Origin: Crenothrix polyspora | GTDB lineage: Bacteria; Pseudomonadota; Gammaproteobacteria; Methylococcales; Methylomonadaceae | Direction: 5' to 3' | Assembly: GCF_900163755.1 (NCBI RefSeq) | Contig: NZ_FUKI01000028.1 | Coordinates: 1 to 34,917 of the forward strand | Length of the DNA stretch: 34,917 nt | Shown: positions 28,177-34,673 of the stretch, in pieces | Numbering within the stretch: position 1 is the first letter of the stretch | Layout: every line of letters begins with the position of its first letter | The notes under the pieces: model-generated | Told to the model about the DNA's origin: nothing | The model's input: only the letters and a program-made list of their open reading frames with translations | The model's database searches: none | Made by a program: the position numbers and the translations under genes

Positions 28177-29545
28177 GGTTATTTTAATCCAAAATACTGT
28201 CATGCAAAGCTTTGTTCAACGTTTTCCGATGCGGCTCATTTGGTTGAAAGCGCATTTGTGGCTAGCATTATCCGCTGGCTTATTTTTTGTATTAGTAGGA
28301 TTAACCGGCAGTCTCAGTGTGTATCGAGAAGATATCGACGATTTTTTTAATCCGCAACTGGTTATTGCGCATCCACAGGGTGAATGGCAATCATTAGATC
28401 GTATTATGGCCTCGGTACGAAATGCACATCCTAAACGCTATGGTTCGTGGACGCTGGAAATGCCTCGCTCACCACACAGTATGATGACAGTTTGGTACGA
28501 TAAACCAACTGAGACTTTTTTTGAATTATACGCACCGCTGATGGTATCGGTAAATCCGTATACGGCGGAAGTGGTTAGCAGTCGATTTTGGGGCGCAACC
28601 CTGACGACGTGGTTACTAGATTTACACACGCAGCTATTAATGAACCGTTTTGGTTGGAATACGGTAGGTATTTTAGGTGTGTTATTAATATTGTCGGTGT
28701 GCAGTGGGCTTTGCCTGTGGTGGCCAGGTTATAAAAATATTGTTTCGGCATTAAAGGTCAATTACCGAACGGGCGTAATAAAACTGTTGTTTGATGTGCA
28801 TCGACTCACCGGCGTACTGATTGCACCGGTGCTGATAGTGTTGGCTTTAACCGGCGTTATGCTGAGTTATCCTGAGTTTTTAGAAAAGCTGGTGGGTACT
28901 TCTGGTATGGCACATGGTGAAACCGGACGCAGTATTGCCAGCACCGCGAACCCGAACGATCATCCAACGGGCATAGAATCGGCTGAGTTTATTGCCCGTG
29001 GTAGTTTTCCGCGTTCCACGTTAAGACGTGTTACTACCCCTACGGGTGATAGCGGTATTTACCGAATTAATTTACGGCAACCGGGCGAGGTTAATCAGCG
29101 CCACCCGTTTACTACAGTGTGGGTAGATCGCTGGAGTGGACAGACCCGTGAGGTGCGTGATCCCTACCAATTTTCAGCAGGTGAAACCGCGTTAACCTGG
29201 ATTTGGCCGTTGCATACCGGTGAGGCATTAGGTTCTAAAGCTCGGTTTATTTGGTTTTTATCGGGCTTTGGACTGTGCTTTTTATATGTCAGTGGTGTGC
29301 TGCGTTGGTTACATCGGCGCGGCAAAATACAGGACAGACCGGTTGATGTGACGGTATTACGAAGGCTCGCTCAGCAAAGTTTAAAGATGCTGATGCAGGG
29401 TATTGCGTTAATGATACCGTGTATTAAACGCGTGATAAACACTGCGCGGCCTTATATTAAAGCGGCTGCTTTAACGACGTTACAGTGGTTTTATCGCTTA
29501 CGTGCGCTGTGGCGTAATCGGCAGAAGCGGTTAGACAAGTTGTAA
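28175..29545 (+). CDS. PepSY-associated transmembrane protein (PiuB-like)
   Basis: Inner-membrane protein of 456 residues in the PepSY_TM family; relatives are linked to siderophore or iron uptake and are thought to be ferric reductases. Family features are an N-terminal helix after WLKAHLWLALSAGLFF, His-containing helices (LDLHTQLLM, FDVHRLTGV, WPLHTGEALG) that may bind haem, and a large periplasmic stretch between helix pairs. Candidate starts are 28175, 28202 (MQSFVQ) and 28229 (MRLIWL); none has a clear ribosome site. No TonB receptor gene lies beside it, so its substrate is open. The last 89 bp overlap the convergent acyltransferase-hydrolase gene. Confidence 0.82.
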   Translation: MVILIQNTVMQSFVQRFPMRLIWLKAHLWLALSAGLFFVLVGLTGSLSVYREDIDDFFNPQLVIAHPQGEWQSLDRIMASVRNAHPKRYGSWTLEMPRSPHSMMTVWYDKPTETFFELYAPLMVSVNPYTAEVVSSRFWGATLTTWLLDLHTQLLMNRFGWNTVGILGVLLILSVCSGLCLWWPGYKNIVSALKVNYRTGVIKLLFDVHRLTGVLIAPVLIVLALTGVMLSYPEFLEKLVGTSGMAHGETGRSIASTANPNDHPTGIESAEFIARGSFPRSTLRRVTTPTGDSGIYRINLRQPGEVNQRHPFTTVWVDRWSGQTREVRDPYQFSAGETALTWIWPLHTGEALGSKARFIWFLSGFGLCFLYVSGVLRWLHRRGKIQDRPVDVTVLRRLAQQSLKMLMQGIALMIPCIKRVINTARPYIKAAALTTLQWFYRLRALWRNRQKRLDKL

Positions 29546-31826
29546 CCGGCTGACAACTACACATAAAAGTGCGTATGGCATCCCAAGTGCCACCGATATT
29601 GTCCATTAAAATACCGTGACGATGGGTGTTGATGACCACGAGTTGTTTTTGGACAGTGGTGAGTTTATCCATTATATCGGTAGCGCTTTTAAAGGCGACA
29701 ACTGGATCGTTATCTGCCTGAACGATTAATACCGGTATGTCGATATCTGCCAAACAGGCATTCATGGCTTCGATAAGCCGTCGTAATTCATATAAACTTT
29801 TAACGGGCATATGGCGGTAATTGATTAAAGGGTGCTCAGAACCGTTTTCGATAAATGGTTTGATACCTTCATAGGATGAAAGCCAGTCAATCAATGTATT
29901 GGCGCTGTGTAATAACGGCACTAGCATAAACGCGGGATTAACAAATTTAACCGGCACTGCGCTGGCACACACGCCGATAATTTGTGGCCGTTTTTCAGCC
30001 GCGAGTTTTAAGGCTAATGCACCGCCGGTAGAAAAGCCACTGACGAAAATCTGCGGGCAATGTGCGCTTAAAATATCAAAACCTCTCAACACAGAAGCAT
30101 ACCAGTCTTCAAAGGTTTGTTGGCGCAAGGCGTAGGGTGAAGAGCCGTGGCCTTTTAAGCGTACTCCCATAACCGTATACCCCTGTTGTACCAAATGGTT
30201 GCCATAATCTTTTAATTCGGCAGGGCTGGCAAGCAGGCCATGTATTAGCAGTACCCCTACGCTGTTACTGCTTTCTGGGGTCAGTAAAAAAGGTGAGGGG
30301 TCGGCTTCGGCGGTTTCTTGGCTGTTAATATCATTGTATTGGCTTTTTCGGTAGGCGTGATATTCCCAGATTAAATCGCGGCATTCATCTTCAAAATACC
30401 ACGCCGCCAGTTGTTTTTTATCAAACGTGTGGCATTGTGCTAACGCGCTGATAATAGTGTCGCGAACCGCTGTAATCGGCTCTACTTCGTTGTCGTAAAC
30501 AGCAATCAGATTTTCCAGTCGGATGCTGTCGAAATCTTGTTCTTGCAAAAGCTTGGGTAAGAATTGATAGCTGTCAGCATGCTCAATAAGCAGTTCGCTG
30601 TCTTGGGCGGCGTGGATAAAATGTTGGAAGCGTGTACTGGTTCCGGTGATTAAATCGTTATAATCCAGTGGATTAAGCAGGCTGCGGTGCAAGTTAATAT
30701 GGGTGTTGTGCTGTAAGTGTTTAACCGCTATGTACAGTGCGGTTAAAAAATCGCTACGAGAAATTGTGTTGCGACCATTTTCGATGCAGTGCATGATCAG
30801 CGTAGCGGCAAGGTGGCTTAAATTAACAGTGACATTGGTGTAAATTGCCTGCATGTACTGATTACGAATATTGATAGCGTTGCTTTTAAGATATAACCCC
30901 AGCAGGTGCTGCTGACAATTTTTAGGGCTGGCATTGATGGCAAATACGGCATCGAGACTGTCAAAATCGGCTGTTGTGGCTTGCAGTAGCTGGCGCGACC
31001 ACCAGGTTGATGTAATACAAGGGTCAATGGGTTGCCCCATACGGATATCCATATCGGTATTTTTGAGCAGAATATTGCCTTCAACCAGCAATTCTTCAGT
31101 TTGGCGAAAACTCAGGTTATTTGTAAATAACTCAACCCCAGTGGACAGCCAGTTTTTGGAGGTTTGAATCGGGTAAAAGGTAATATTGGCGGGGATAATG
31201 CGCGTGGGTTTTAAGGCATTAATTAATAATTGATCGACACTGTCGAGTTTAAGGTGTTCTTGCCAGCGTGCCAGTTGAGCATGGTTTTTAGCGTTGTAAG
31301 TTTTGCGTATCGCGGCTTTAAAAATTTCTAAACCCTGTGCCAGAACAGCGGCTCCGGTATGTTGTTTGCGTCTTTCGCCGGAGATGCGCGAGTAGATATT
31401 GTATTGTCCTTGGTGATCCAGCACCCTGTGGTCTTTAACCATGCCGCCTTCAGGAAAAATGATGACTTTGTGGCCGCGCAGTATGTGCGCTGCCAGTAAA
31501 GAAAATAATCGCGGGTGATCGTGGGGCAGTGCGCCTACTTTTTGCAGATAACTGGCCAATAAGCTATCGTCTTTAAAAAACTCACTGGAAGCGACGGCGC
31601 AACTGTAAGCTCCGGTTTGTTCAAAAATTAAAAATTGCGGGATAAAGGTTTCAAAGCGGGCAAAATGATTAAATAAAAAAATATCGCCTTCTTGTACCTG
31701 GCTATCACCGTGAATTTTTATTTTGACGCTGAGCAATTTGGTGACTGCGCTGATCATTTTTACTGAGCGATGATAAATTGTTGTATCAATAGCGTACCAA
31801 TCATCGGGATAGTCTGTATTGGGCAT
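29457..31826 (-). CDS. Fusion protein: PlsC-like acyltransferase plus alpha/beta hydrolase (lipase-type)
   Basis: A 789-residue protein with two enzymatic modules in one frame. Residues 1-260 resemble 1-acylglycerol-3-phosphate acyltransferases, with NHFARFE at 53-59 (His54-x4-Glu59 in place of the usual His-x4-Asp) and FPEGG at 124-128. A helical linker of no known family spans about 270-510. Residues 520-755 form an alpha/beta hydrolase of the esterase/lysophospholipase type: LLIHGLLASP oxyanion region, nucleophile Ser599 in GFSTGG, Asp707 in QADNDPV, and His735 or His737. No signal peptide is seen. It starts 5 nt after mlaA, so a role in remodelling retrieved phospholipids or lysophospholipids is inferred. 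The C-terminal tail of about 30 residues is encoded opposite the end of the PepSY-type gene. Confidence 0.85.
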   Translation of the reverse strand: MPNTDYPDDWYAIDTTIYHRSVKMISAVTKLLSVKIKIHGDSQVQEGDIFLFNHFARFETFIPQFLIFEQTGAYSCAVASSEFFKDDSLLASYLQKVGALPHDHPRLFSLLAAHILRGHKVIIFPEGGMVKDHRVLDHQGQYNIYSRISGERRKQHTGAAVLAQGLEIFKAAIRKTYNAKNHAQLARWQEHLKLDSVDQLLINALKPTRIIPANITFYPIQTSKNWLSTGVELFTNNLSFRQTEELLVEGNILLKNTDMDIRMGQPIDPCITSTWWSRQLLQATTADFDSLDAVFAINASPKNCQQHLLGLYLKSNAINIRNQYMQAIYTNVTVNLSHLAATLIMHCIENGRNTISRSDFLTALYIAVKHLQHNTHINLHRSLLNPLDYNDLITGTSTRFQHFIHAAQDSELLIEHADSYQFLPKLLQEQDFDSIRLENLIAVYDNEVEPITAVRDTIISALAQCHTFDKKQLAAWYFEDECRDLIWEYHAYRKSQYNDINSQETAEADPSPFLLTPESSNSVGVLLIHGLLASPAELKDYGNHLVQQGYTVMGVRLKGHGSSPYALRQQTFEDWYASVLRGFDILSAHCPQIFVSGFSTGGALALKLAAEKRPQIIGVCASAVPVKFVNPAFMLVPLLHSANTLIDWLSSYEGIKPFIENGSEHPLINYRHMPVKSLYELRRLIEAMNACLADIDIPVLIVQADNDPVVAFKSATDIMDKLTTVQKQLVVINTHRHGILMDNIGGTWDAIRTFMCSCQPVTTCLTASADYATAHVSDKTTVTSLKQPL

Positions 31827-31831
31827 AAGGC

Positions 31832-32788
31832 TTAATCCGGTGCAGACAATTCCAAAAAACGTTTGGAGTTGTCAATAATAGGAACGGGGGCGTTGATAAT
31901 CGGCGGTAATTTTTTAGAATTGTCTATAACAGGAATACCGTCGCTACTATAACCTAGCCCCCCTGAGCTATTACTGGGATCAAGCGTTTGCGTACTGGCA
32001 ATACCCGTGTCTGTGCTATTCGTATCAGGTTGGTCGGCTAATAAATCATCACCGTCTGCGGTGGGTGGGCTGCCGTCATGAATTAAATATTCACGGTGTT
32101 GTGTATAGGCATTTTTAATAAAATCGTAACGATCAATAGCACCTTCATCGACAATTTTTTCAGTCGACATCAAATCTGATCGGGTGTCGGTTACATCTAA
32201 CACGGTTGTGCCTGTGGTAGCTGCACTGGCCGCTACGCCGCCAAACATCGACACATAGGTTAAGGGGTTTAATAGCGCGTCACCCACTAAACCGACGGCA
32301 TCGCGCGGTGAGCTGGCACCAAAAAATGGCAATACCGTGTAAGAGCCGGAGGGCACCCCCCAAAAACCTAAAGTTTGGCCAAAATCTTCGTTATGCTTAG
32401 GCAATTTTAGTTTGGAAGCCACATCAAAAATACCGCCTAGCCCCGCCGTTGAATTAATGACAAAACGACTAACATCCATGCCGCTTTGCAAAAATTTAAG
32501 TTGCAGCAAGTCATTAACAGACACACCGATATCGCTTATATTACTGAAAAAATTGGTAACACCGGTATTTATCGGTTTAGGAGCGGTGTTTTTGTAACTC
32601 TTAGCCATCGGTTTTAAGATCGCTTTATCGACATCGTTATTAAAAGATGATGTCGTGCGATTCCATGATTCCCATGGATCGGCAGGATTTTTAGCAGGTT
32701 GCTGCGCCGCGCAACCGATAAAATTGCCTGCGATAATAAAGCCCAGCGCGGTAAGTTGCTTACAAGGCGTGTGTTTTTTCAGGTTCAT
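31832..32788 (-). CDS. mlaA: MlaA (VacJ) family outer-membrane lipoprotein
   Basis: Outer-membrane lipoprotein that removes misplaced phospholipid from the outer leaflet. The ATG at 32788 has GGAAG seven bases upstream and gives a lipoprotein signal (basic start, hydrophobic core, NFIGC with lipid Cys26); the frame is open 34 codons further upstream but without a signal. The MlaA domain starts at DPWESWNR and includes FVINSTAGLGG, EDFGQTLGFWG and LPFFGASSPRDAVG. At 318 residues it is longer than E. coli MlaA (251): a C-terminal extension rich in Asp, Ser and Thr ends with a duplicated IDNSK(K/R) unit. It is followed after 5 nt by the acyltransferase-hydrolase gene; no other mla genes are nearby. 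Confidence 0.92.
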   Translation of the reverse strand: MNLKKHTPCKQLTALGFIIAGNFIGCAAQQPAKNPADPWESWNRTTSSFNNDVDKAILKPMAKSYKNTAPKPINTGVTNFFSNISDIGVSVNDLLQLKFLQSGMDVSRFVINSTAGLGGIFDVASKLKLPKHNEDFGQTLGFWGVPSGSYTVLPFFGASSPRDAVGLVGDALLNPLTYVSMFGGVAASAATTGTTVLDVTDTRSDLMSTEKIVDEGAIDRYDFIKNAYTQHREYLIHDGSPPTADGDDLLADQPDTNSTDTGIASTQTLDPSNSSGGLGYSSDGIPVIDNSKKLPPIINAPVPIIDNSKRFLELSAPD

Positions 32789-32911
32789 ACGGTTTCTTCC
32801 AATCGGTTTAGCGTGATTTGAATAGTGGTAATGACTTGGATTACATTGATAGTTTAGTGCGTGTTGCGTTATTTCAAAGTTTGCTATCAACCTTGAAAGG
32901 GCGTTTTAATC

Positions 32912-33092: not shown

Positions 33093-34673
33093 TTAGTTGA
33101 CTTGAATAATTTGATAGCGATTTAAAAATTCGGTTGAATGCAGTTGGCGCATTTGGCGGTATCGGTTGTTACTGTGTTCTTTTTTAATAAAAATATATTC
33201 ATCGGGATGGAAGCCATTATTTAATACCAATACGCTTTCAGGCTGTCGATTGCTGTCTTCTCTAGGCAAATAAATGGCATCGATTTCAGTATCGGGTTGT
33301 CCTGCGTTAGATATTTTTATGGCTTGGGCATTAATCCCCAATAATTCTACGCCAATTTTGGTATCGCTTTCTTCTGATTGCGATAACCAACGAATAAAGC
33401 CGATATTGAGTGACTTTTGTTGTAAACCGATAATATTGCCTACTTTGGGTTTAATGCGTTTGTTGGGCCATAAGACACCGCAGCCATTTTTACTTTTATC
33501 AATTAATTTGACATGGGTATCGGCAGGACGTGTCGTGTTAAAAATAGCGGAAAGCTCAGGCGGCGTTGTTGGCTGTCTATTATAGCCAGCACCGATATTA
33601 GCAGTAATGCGGTGCAGTGCGCCGGTTGCTTTTAAGTCGATATAGCCTTTGGCATTGGCTGTGTAGGCATTTTCCAAGGCCTGATTACGCAAATAATCGA
33701 TCAAATGTTCGAAATTAATCAAGGCCATGCACGGTGTGTTTACCGGCACTCTTTCGTGTTTACGCTGTGTGTTAGATGTCAGTGCTTTTGCTAGGCGTAA
33801 TAACATTAACTGATCTAAATAAGAATGCTCTAATTCTTTATCGTAAGCGGCTTCAAGTACTTTGCTGGCAACATCGACAGCTGCTGTGTAAAGCACGTAA
33901 GGATCATCTTTATCTACGTCATCGGTTGGATTGCTGGGTGGCAAATCACGTCTAAGATGCACCCACGGCGTGCCTCTGAATTTTTTTTCGGGTACGTTTT
34001 TTAACAGTTTGGCGTGTATGGAATACTGCCCCAGTAACGCGTAGACGACTCGCATTTCCTGCGGTGAAAATTGATTGGTATGGCTTAAATAAAAGACTAA
34101 AACATGTTTGAAAGCATTGGTGATACTTTCGCCACTGTATTTTATGGTTTCTTTATGGTGCGCCAGTCGATAAAAATGATAGCAATCAGACCAAAAATTG
34201 GCGTAAGGGCGATTGTAAAGCTGACTCATGTACAGCAATGCTTTGCTTAAAGCTTGTAGGCCGTGGGTAATGAGTAATGATTTTTGTTGTTGTGAATAGT
34301 AAGTGTTTTTCTTAAAGGCTTCTTCCATGCTTAACATTTTGTAGCTGTTTGCCAATTCTACGCAGCTCCAAATAGAGAAATCGTACACGGTATTTTCATC
34401 GGCATCAAACGGGTGTAGGTTTTGATTAATAACCGGTTGCGTAGTGATACGTGCCGTTAATTGAAAAAGCACGGGTGCTATTTTTTCCAGTATTAGTAAA
34501 CGGGTTTTTCCTGCTACCGGCGTTTTGTTGAGTGTGAGCAAAATATGTAACAGCTGTTCGCAGCTTTGCACTTCGTCCTCAAGGTTGAGCGATTTAAACC
34601 AGCGCAGAAAATCCATATCATTCACTGCAAAGGGAAGTGGTCGGGACATGGCAATCGGACAATATCTAAACAT
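33093..34673 (-). CDS. PilZ-type c-di-GMP-binding protein with split motif
   Basis: A 526-residue cytosolic protein. Residues 20-300 are mostly helical and of no known function. The PilZ motif RxxxR appears as RKHER (304-308, followed by VPVNTPC), but DxSxxG appears only at 392-397 (DKSKNG), leaving an insertion of some 60 residues compared with ordinary PilZ domains, where the two lie about 20-30 residues apart. Residues 398-450 continue the PilZ barrel (GNIIGL, GFIRWL). Binding of c-di-GMP is inferred. The start is uncertain: ATGs at 34673, 34649 (MSRPLP) and 34616 (MDFLRW) are possible; a good promoter at 34716-34743 fits either of the first two. The gene lies upstream of mlaA but is separated from it by about 300 nt. 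Confidence 0.75.
   Translation of the reverse strand: MFRYCPIAMSRPLPFAVNDMDFLRWFKSLNLEDEVQSCEQLLHILLTLNKTPVAGKTRLLILEKIAPVLFQLTARITTQPVINQNLHPFDADENTVYDFSIWSCVELANSYKMLSMEEAFKKNTYYSQQQKSLLITHGLQALSKALLYMSQLYNRPYANFWSDCYHFYRLAHHKETIKYSGESITNAFKHVLVFYLSHTNQFSPQEMRVVYALLGQYSIHAKLLKNVPEKKFRGTPWVHLRRDLPPSNPTDDVDKDDPYVLYTAAVDVASKVLEAAYDKELEHSYLDQLMLLRLAKALTSNTQRKHERVPVNTPCMALINFEHLIDYLRNQALENAYTANAKGYIDLKATGALHRITANIGAGYNRQPTTPPELSAIFNTTRPADTHVKLIDKSKNGCGVLWPNKRIKPKVGNIIGLQQKSLNIGFIRWLSQSEESDTKIGVELLGINAQAIKISNAGQPDTEIDAIYLPREDSNRQPESVLVLNNGFHPDEYIFIKKEHSNNRYRQMRQLHSTEFLNRYQIIQVN

Follow-up and report, generated by a model that had tools for sequence, protein, structure and literature searches.

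Background

In the plant and algal ELT proteins (PES1/PES2 and PES alpha/beta), which belong to lipid turnover, one chain combines an alpha/beta hydrolase with an acyltransferase. In PES alpha and PES beta the hydrolase region lies ahead of the acyltransferase region, as set out in the accessible portion of the source (PMC12526585). The PES acyltransferase groups with cyanobacterial MFAT and more distantly with DGAT2, and similarity to the acyltransferase region of PES1/PES2 is described for cyanobacterial slr2103, according to the available sections of PMC12048435. Here we describe a gene of Crenothrix polyspora whose product, judged from its domains, pairs the same activities as the plant PES proteins in reverse order. 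The gene lies on a contig (NZ_FUKI01000028.1, assembly GCF_900163755.1) of a 3.9 Mb genome; the whole stretch analysed, 34,917 nucleotides (nt), is called the window. It encodes a PlsC-like acyltransferase, a middle domain and a lipase-like alpha/beta hydrolase. Relatives of this fusion are linked most often to genes of beta-oxidation, and we tentatively propose that it takes part in acyl-lipid turnover attached to that pathway.

The initial annotation of the locus knew of no characterised protein with such an architecture. As far as is known this holds for the order acyltransferase then hydrolase, which is that of the window protein and of our whole alignment, and the statement has to be narrowed to that order given the PES proteins, in which the two parts are reversed. 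The fusion further differs from these in its PlsC-like acyltransferase and in the additional domain in between. A literature search covering few subscription journals gave no paper on the fusion protein among the matches listed.

PlsC, the 1-acyl-glycerol-3-phosphate acyltransferase (PF01553), shares with the fusion the FPEG motif and the position of motif I, but the fusion has HX4E for HX4D, an extra middle domain and a fused lipase. The monoacylglycerol lipases of Bacillus sp. H257 and Geobacillus and the Est30 carboxylesterases share with it the fold, the catalytic triad and ~20-32% identity over the hydrolase domain; they are free-standing, whereas the hydrolase of the fusion is attached to an acyltransferase and has lost its nucleophile in one clade. 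PlsB/GPAT (PF19277 C-terminal domain) has, like the fusion, a sizeable region beyond its acyltransferase, and the two give a weak colinear alignment that is not significant. The mycobacterial protein BCG1721/Rv1683 carries an acyl-CoA (coenzyme A) synthetase part, so that its synthetic partner would be a ligase and not an acyltransferase. It is placed among the lipases/esterases of triacylglycerol metabolism in the accessible part of PMC3503283.

Domain organization and conservation of the fusion

The fusion gene (29457..31826, minus strand) is one intact frame of 789 amino acids with an ATG start. The initial annotation had placed the acyltransferase and the hydrolase in a single frame and had named a frameshift splitting the domains as one of two findings that would refute its reading. 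An end-to-end alignment gave the same three-part layout in 61 distinct homologues, each in one frame, and because of this a frameshift or other artefact as the origin of the fusion was rejected. Copies with stops or splits also occur (e.g. in genomes G113 and G022). The acyltransferase–lipase fusion is a real, widely conserved bacterial protein. Left out of the 61-row alignment were the split locus L106; L054, whose protein is that of L099; L020, which lies close to the end of a contig; L095, in which no frame was found; and two identical sequences. The divergent L103 was kept. The tree was built from 60 rows, with L045 left out.

In a sample of 121 genomes of the order, a relative was found in 59 at E<=1e-30. 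Of 369 genomes in a class sample 40 matched at E<=1e-15; 21 of these matches were of approximately full length, and the weaker ones mostly covered the hydrolase alone. In a phylum sample 9 of 398 matched at E<=1e-20. Approximately the full length was covered in the window and in three genomes of another class, residues 48-755 in one genome belonging to the window's class, and the hydrolase alone in four. Named relatives come from Crenothrix polyspora (78% identity), Methyloglobulus and four other Methylococcales/Methylococcaceae records. The 61 aligned proteins were drawn from these samples and records.

The N-terminal half (approximately residues 20-299; 30930..31769, minus strand) is classed by sequence comparison as a remote PlsC-type acyltransferase. 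It contains the HX4E motif NHFARFE (residues 53-59), FPEGG (124-128) and IIPANITFYP (210-219). The Pfam Acyltransferase profile (PF01553) scores 14.9 bits on residues 35-164, below its cut-off of 23, and is matched at E<=0.01 by 28 of 42 aligned relatives (best 3.2e-6). Profile comparison with HHalign against three PlsC proteins encoded elsewhere in the window's genome gave an E of 5.6e-7 (probability 92%), decoy profiles with the same query giving 0.17-0.55. Since the relatives match PF01553 and the profile comparison agrees, the remote assignment as PlsC-like, already made in the initial annotation, is borne out. The HX4D form of the catalytic motif is not found; every homologue row that retains the histidine has HX4E, an accepted variant in other families of lysophospholipid acyltransferases (LPLAT). 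His54 is present in 60 of the 61 rows, Glu59 in all, and the FPEG motif with E126 in 60, the remaining row, L103, having FPQG. L103 (4552-6669, fusion-strand coordinates; 705 amino acids) is very divergent at 26% identity and is the sole row without the acyltransferase motif; its motifs are degenerate and its lipase serine is intact. Elsewhere in the C. polyspora genome, L117 (G000:C6, 2266-4410) encodes an Aas-like fusion of 714 amino acids made of a PlsC-type acyltransferase and an acyl-activating enzyme, and adjoins phosphatidate-cytidylyltransferase-like and CDP-alcohol-transferase-like genes and another PlsC; apart from the PF01553 matches, these assignments were made by reading.

The C-terminal half (approximately residues 512-756; 29559..30293, minus strand) is monoacylglycerol-lipase-like by the same kind of comparison. 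Hydrolase_4 (PF12146) scores 86.2 bits against a cut-off of 27 on residues 525-742, and all 42 relatives match it at E<=0.01. The window fusion has a complete Ser-Asp-His triad, with the nucleophile Ser599 in GFSTGG (597-602) where the initial annotation had put it; across the rows Ser599 is kept in 56/61, Asp707 in 61/61 and His737 in 60/61. The nearest solved hydrolases by sequence and fold are bacterial monoacylglycerol lipases and Est30-type carboxylesterases, and this half is clear in both Foldseek and VIA-align with an AlphaFold2 model.

The middle domain (approximately residues 300-505; 30312..30929, minus strand) is conserved and matches no Pfam family in the window protein or in the 42 relatives, in line with the linker of about 240 residues of unknown family noted at first. 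It is predicted to be mostly helical in AlphaFold2 models of modest confidence (two jobs, seven rows; mean pLDDT, the predicted local distance difference test, 61.2 and 56.7). HHalign against PlsB gave a weak colinear alignment (E 0.01-0.02); the value was 0.022 with residues 1-505 as query and 0.072 with only the middle domain. Decoy profiles searched with these forward queries gave 0.17-0.66, and reversed-versus-reversed PlsB 0.028-0.22. Foldseek with the N-terminal model returned no match at E<=0.001, the quality of this model being too low to speak on the fold. By eye, and weakly by HHalign, the middle domain resembles the C-terminal domain of PlsB, a likeness that is suggestive only.

No signal peptide was seen when the window sequence was read by eye, and its 19-residue stretches of highest hydrophobicity belong to the hydrolase, the top mean being 1.68 at position 684. 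A 19-residue stretch above 1.6 is present in 28 of the 61 homologues, the top six lying at ~610-629 in their own numbering. The protein is probably located at the cytoplasmic face.

Two features of the gene ends were also recorded. The 3' ends of the fusion and of a convergent PepSY_TM gene overlap by 89 bases (29457-29545), and the Crenothrix frames likewise overlap. The homologue frame in L099 (5048-8011, fusion-strand coordinates) is 987 amino acids long with ~200 additional N-terminal residues, which may reflect just an upstream start codon.

Beta-oxidation genes are the commonest genomic partner

The commonest genomic partner of the fusion is beta-oxidation and not the MlaA transporter. 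The fusion occurs in 59 of the order's 121 sampled genomes and one type of FadB in 47; both are present in 46, and a single genome has this FadB without the fusion (Fisher p 3.6e-20, kinship ignored). FadB was counted as one type at E<=1e-60 and FadD as one type at E<=1e-120, and one or both of these occur in 55 of the 59 fusion genomes versus 2 of the 62 others. The counted FadB lies within 10 kb of the fusion in 24/59 genomes, a close FadD in 14/59 and either in 29/59, FadD distances having been computed from 17 of 34 FadD positions and 20 fusion positions, with the remaining FadD positions on contigs other than that of the fusion as judged by eye. All 29 nearby cases are downstream of the fusion on the same strand.

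Reading of 46 neighbourhoods gave at least one fad-type match in 28, and downstream on the same strand we counted fadA 19 times, fadB 17, fadE 12 and fadD 10. The fusion and fad genes overlap or abut at several loci, and the NCBIfam names of ten neighbours are acetyl-CoA C-acyltransferase, FadB/FadJ-type, long-chain-fatty-acid CoA ligase and acyl-CoA dehydrogenase FadE. Eight genera are mixed for the fusion, and fusion and FadB agree fully in four of them: g3 (5/6), g4 (2/4), g5 (1/14) and g23 (1/2 with the fusion).

Our preferred reading, to which we give a probability of about 0.45, is that the fusion is a bifunctional acyl-lipid turnover enzyme attached to beta-oxidation, releasing fatty acids and re-esterifying acyl-CoA. 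The lipase-like domain, through Ser599/Asp707/His737, would deacylate a monoacyl lipid, either a lysophospholipid or a monoacylglycerol, taken from the membranes of the cell itself. The freed fatty acid would be activated by FadD or another ligase and then burned by FadE, FadB and FadA. When acyl groups are to be kept, the acyltransferase domain would return them to lysolipid with acyl-CoA as the donor, and the fusion, with both sites working jointly, would stand at a branch point between oxidation and re-esterification.

Several observations weigh against this reading. The counted FadB type is absent from 13 of the 59 fusion genomes, and the mixed genera g16, g17, g20 and g22 lack full agreement between fusion and FadB, some of the genomes being incomplete. 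No fad match was seen in 18 of the 46 neighbourhoods, the window included, in downstream stretches of 0.9-6.7 kb. The FadJ-type gene at L079 is on the opposite strand, the FadB-like genes at L094 and L096 are upstream, and the weak ligase matches at L101 and L102 are upstream and on the opposite strand. Gene pairing of this kind reveals neither the direction of a reaction nor its substrate. Ser599 is replaced in five of the 61 rows (Gly in four, Ala in one), which form one clade with support 99/98, and the loci of this clade still have fadD and fadB downstream; hydrolysis is therefore not needed everywhere. Finally, deletion of fadABE in Methylomicrobium buryatense 5G(B1) caused no significant change in growth, and the fatty acid methyl ester (FAME) value went from 9.17+/-0.80 to 10.12+/-0.89, within the errors although called an increase by the authors, in the accessible part of PMC5222806.

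Fatty acid oxidation genes in the C. polyspora genome

In the window's own genome the fadA, fadB and fadE frames are intact and lie together on contig C32, away from the fusion, which is why the initial annotation missed the beta-oxidation partner. A cytochrome-c-like gene with a CNSCH motif (L134, 3798-4418) is located between fadB and fadE. Searches of this genome gave no FadL-family match, the control search finding E. coli FadL, and no FadD at E<=1e-120. The lack of FadD extends to the sampled fusion genomes of the window's family, where the counted FadB is present in 20/20 and FadD at this threshold in 0/20, versus FadD in 32/39 fusion genomes of other families. As the own genome has neither a FadL match nor a close FadD, internal lipid may feed its beta-oxidation.

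This gene content parallels that of M. buryatense 5G(B1), for which the available text of PMC5222806 gives fadABE as present, with three consecutive fad accessions, and fadL, fadD and plsB as lacking. The authors regard fadABE as active and the missing fadD as puzzling, and consider that other acyl-CoA synthetases may stand in for it (PMC5222806, same part). For E. coli, a route from outer-membrane phospholipid to acyl-CoA through PldA and FadD is described in the accessible part of PMC5874903.

A lack of FadD beside a complete FadB count in the window's family, together with the puzzle posed by M. buryatense, would fit an acyltransferase that acted as a CoA-dependent deacylase (lipid + CoA -> acyl-CoA + lysolipid) that feeds beta-oxidation without FadD, the hydrolase clearing the lysolipid. 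We hold this to be improbable, because the stand-in synthetases named above may replace FadD and because reverse acyltransfer by an LPLAT-type fold is known from eukaryotic enzymes. Its fullest form, to which we attach little credence, is that in methanotrophs with beta-oxidation and neither FadL nor FadD the fusion would be the entry gate: the HX4E acyltransferase would move membrane acyl chains onto CoA independently of ATP, the hydrolase would finish the lysolipid, and the cell would consume its own membranes; in one clade lipid brought back by MlaA would add to the supply.

Linkage to mlaA is confined to one clade

Directly upstream of the fusion in the window is the lipoprotein gene mlaA (31832..32890, minus strand), whose likely start is the ATG at 32788, an upstream TTG being less likely in our own reading; its product matches MlaA in Pfam at 244.9 bits. 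The mlaA stop (31832-31834) and the fusion ATG (31826-31824) are separated by the 5 nt that the initial annotation had reported. The same arrangement occurs in nine relatives, the spacing ranging from -8 to +11 nt over the six loci measured, and the ten rows form one clade with support 100/100.

From this pair the initial annotation drew a role in retrieving and remodelling phospholipid, and pointed to mlaA linkage across Methylococcales as one test of it. Linkage in relatives does exist and lipid recycling is still plausible, but the mlaA link is shallow: it is limited to the one clade, has a single origin on the tree and accounts for 6 of the 59 fusion genomes among the matches listed (G000, G086, G092, G094, G100 and G119), while MlaA itself is present in at least 114 of the 121 genomes, with or without the fusion. 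Moreover, fadA or fadB lies downstream in 7 of the 10 mlaA-linked rows (L035, L036, L086, L004, L005, L007, L008), with FadB 1.1-1.3 kb from the fusion in genomes G086, G119, G100, G092 and G094 (rows L004, L005, L007, L008, L086); the window, L033 and L034 have no fadA/fadB downstream in the stretch read. On the tree, then, linkage to fad genes is the more widespread of the two. The clade restriction and these counts led us to reject MlaA as the partner that defines the fusion, and the constant mlaA linkage of a member of the Mla system was not found.

MlaA-coupled retrieval as the primary role of the fusion can call on the tight gene spacing and on the strong support for the clade. The counts above and the retained fad genes speak against it, as does the distribution of the other mla-type genes of the genome, with a second MlaA next to hopanoid-like genes and mlaF/E/D/B-like genes elsewhere, and we judge it improbable. 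Under the preferred reading of acyl-lipid turnover, mlaA would have joined the locus in one clade, and lipid returned from the outer membrane may therefore be one source there.

The second mlaA (L115, G000:C176, 788-3422) adjoins MlaC/HpnM-like and HpnH-like radical SAM genes and is near a squalene/phytoene-synthase-like gene, all by reading except MlaA, and this MlaA perhaps serves hopanoid lipids. L116 (G000:C180, 3298-5694) contains an mlaF-mlaE-mlaD-mlaB-like operon with murA-like and hisG-like genes behind it, all but MlaD named by reading, and no mlaC or mlaA was seen among the listed open reading frames. Upstream of the window's mlaA, a protein of 526 amino acids (33093-34673) has no Pfam match at E<=1 and is 73% conserved in Crenothrix.

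A clade without the hydrolase serine

Within the clade that has lost Ser599, the four Gly rows are grouped with support 100/100. Among these rows the ratio of nonsynonymous to synonymous substitution rates (dN/dS), for four non-independent pairs, is 0.06-0.10 in the acyltransferase and 0.13-0.19 in the Ser-less hydrolase; six other pairs gave 0.05-0.16 in the hydrolase and 0.03-0.30 in the acyltransferase, some dS values being saturated. A ratio of 0.13-0.19 means that the Ser-less domain is still maintained, and suggests for it a structural or regulatory part in this clade. G004 and G079 each carry two copies of the fusion; of the pair in G079, L070 retains the lipase serine and L071 does not.

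These features would also fit a protein that is mainly an acyl-CoA-dependent acyltransferase, salvaging acyl-CoA from the fad pathway into lipid or neutral esters as the PES enzymes do, with the hydrolase as a helper that acts as a catalyst in the majority of lineages and has just a structural or regulatory role in the rest. H54 and E126 are kept in 60/61 rows and E59 in 61/61 while Ser599 is lost in the clade of five, and in that clade the acyltransferase has the lower dN/dS. The window's genome gave no GPAT_C match, and M. buryatense is reported to lack PlsB, through which acyl-CoA would enter phospholipid (PMC5222806, in the part available). We nevertheless regard this alternative as possible but somewhat unlikely. 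Ser599 and Asp707 are kept in 56/61 and 61/61 rows, respectively, L103 shows the reverse pattern with a degenerate acyltransferase and an intact serine, and pairing with fad genes would be expected more readily of an enzyme that supplies fatty acids than of one devoted to salvage. As a turnover enzyme with two activities, the fusion would have in the Ser-less clade a natural separation of its two functions.

If the fusion does feed the fad pathway, it could account for the entry of fatty acids into beta-oxidation where fadD is lacking. The authors of PMC5222806 found it puzzling that a methanotroph whose beta-oxidation they hold to be active should have no fadD. As a conserved protein with two predicted lipid activities that heads fad loci in related bacteria, the fusion is a concrete candidate for the entry route.

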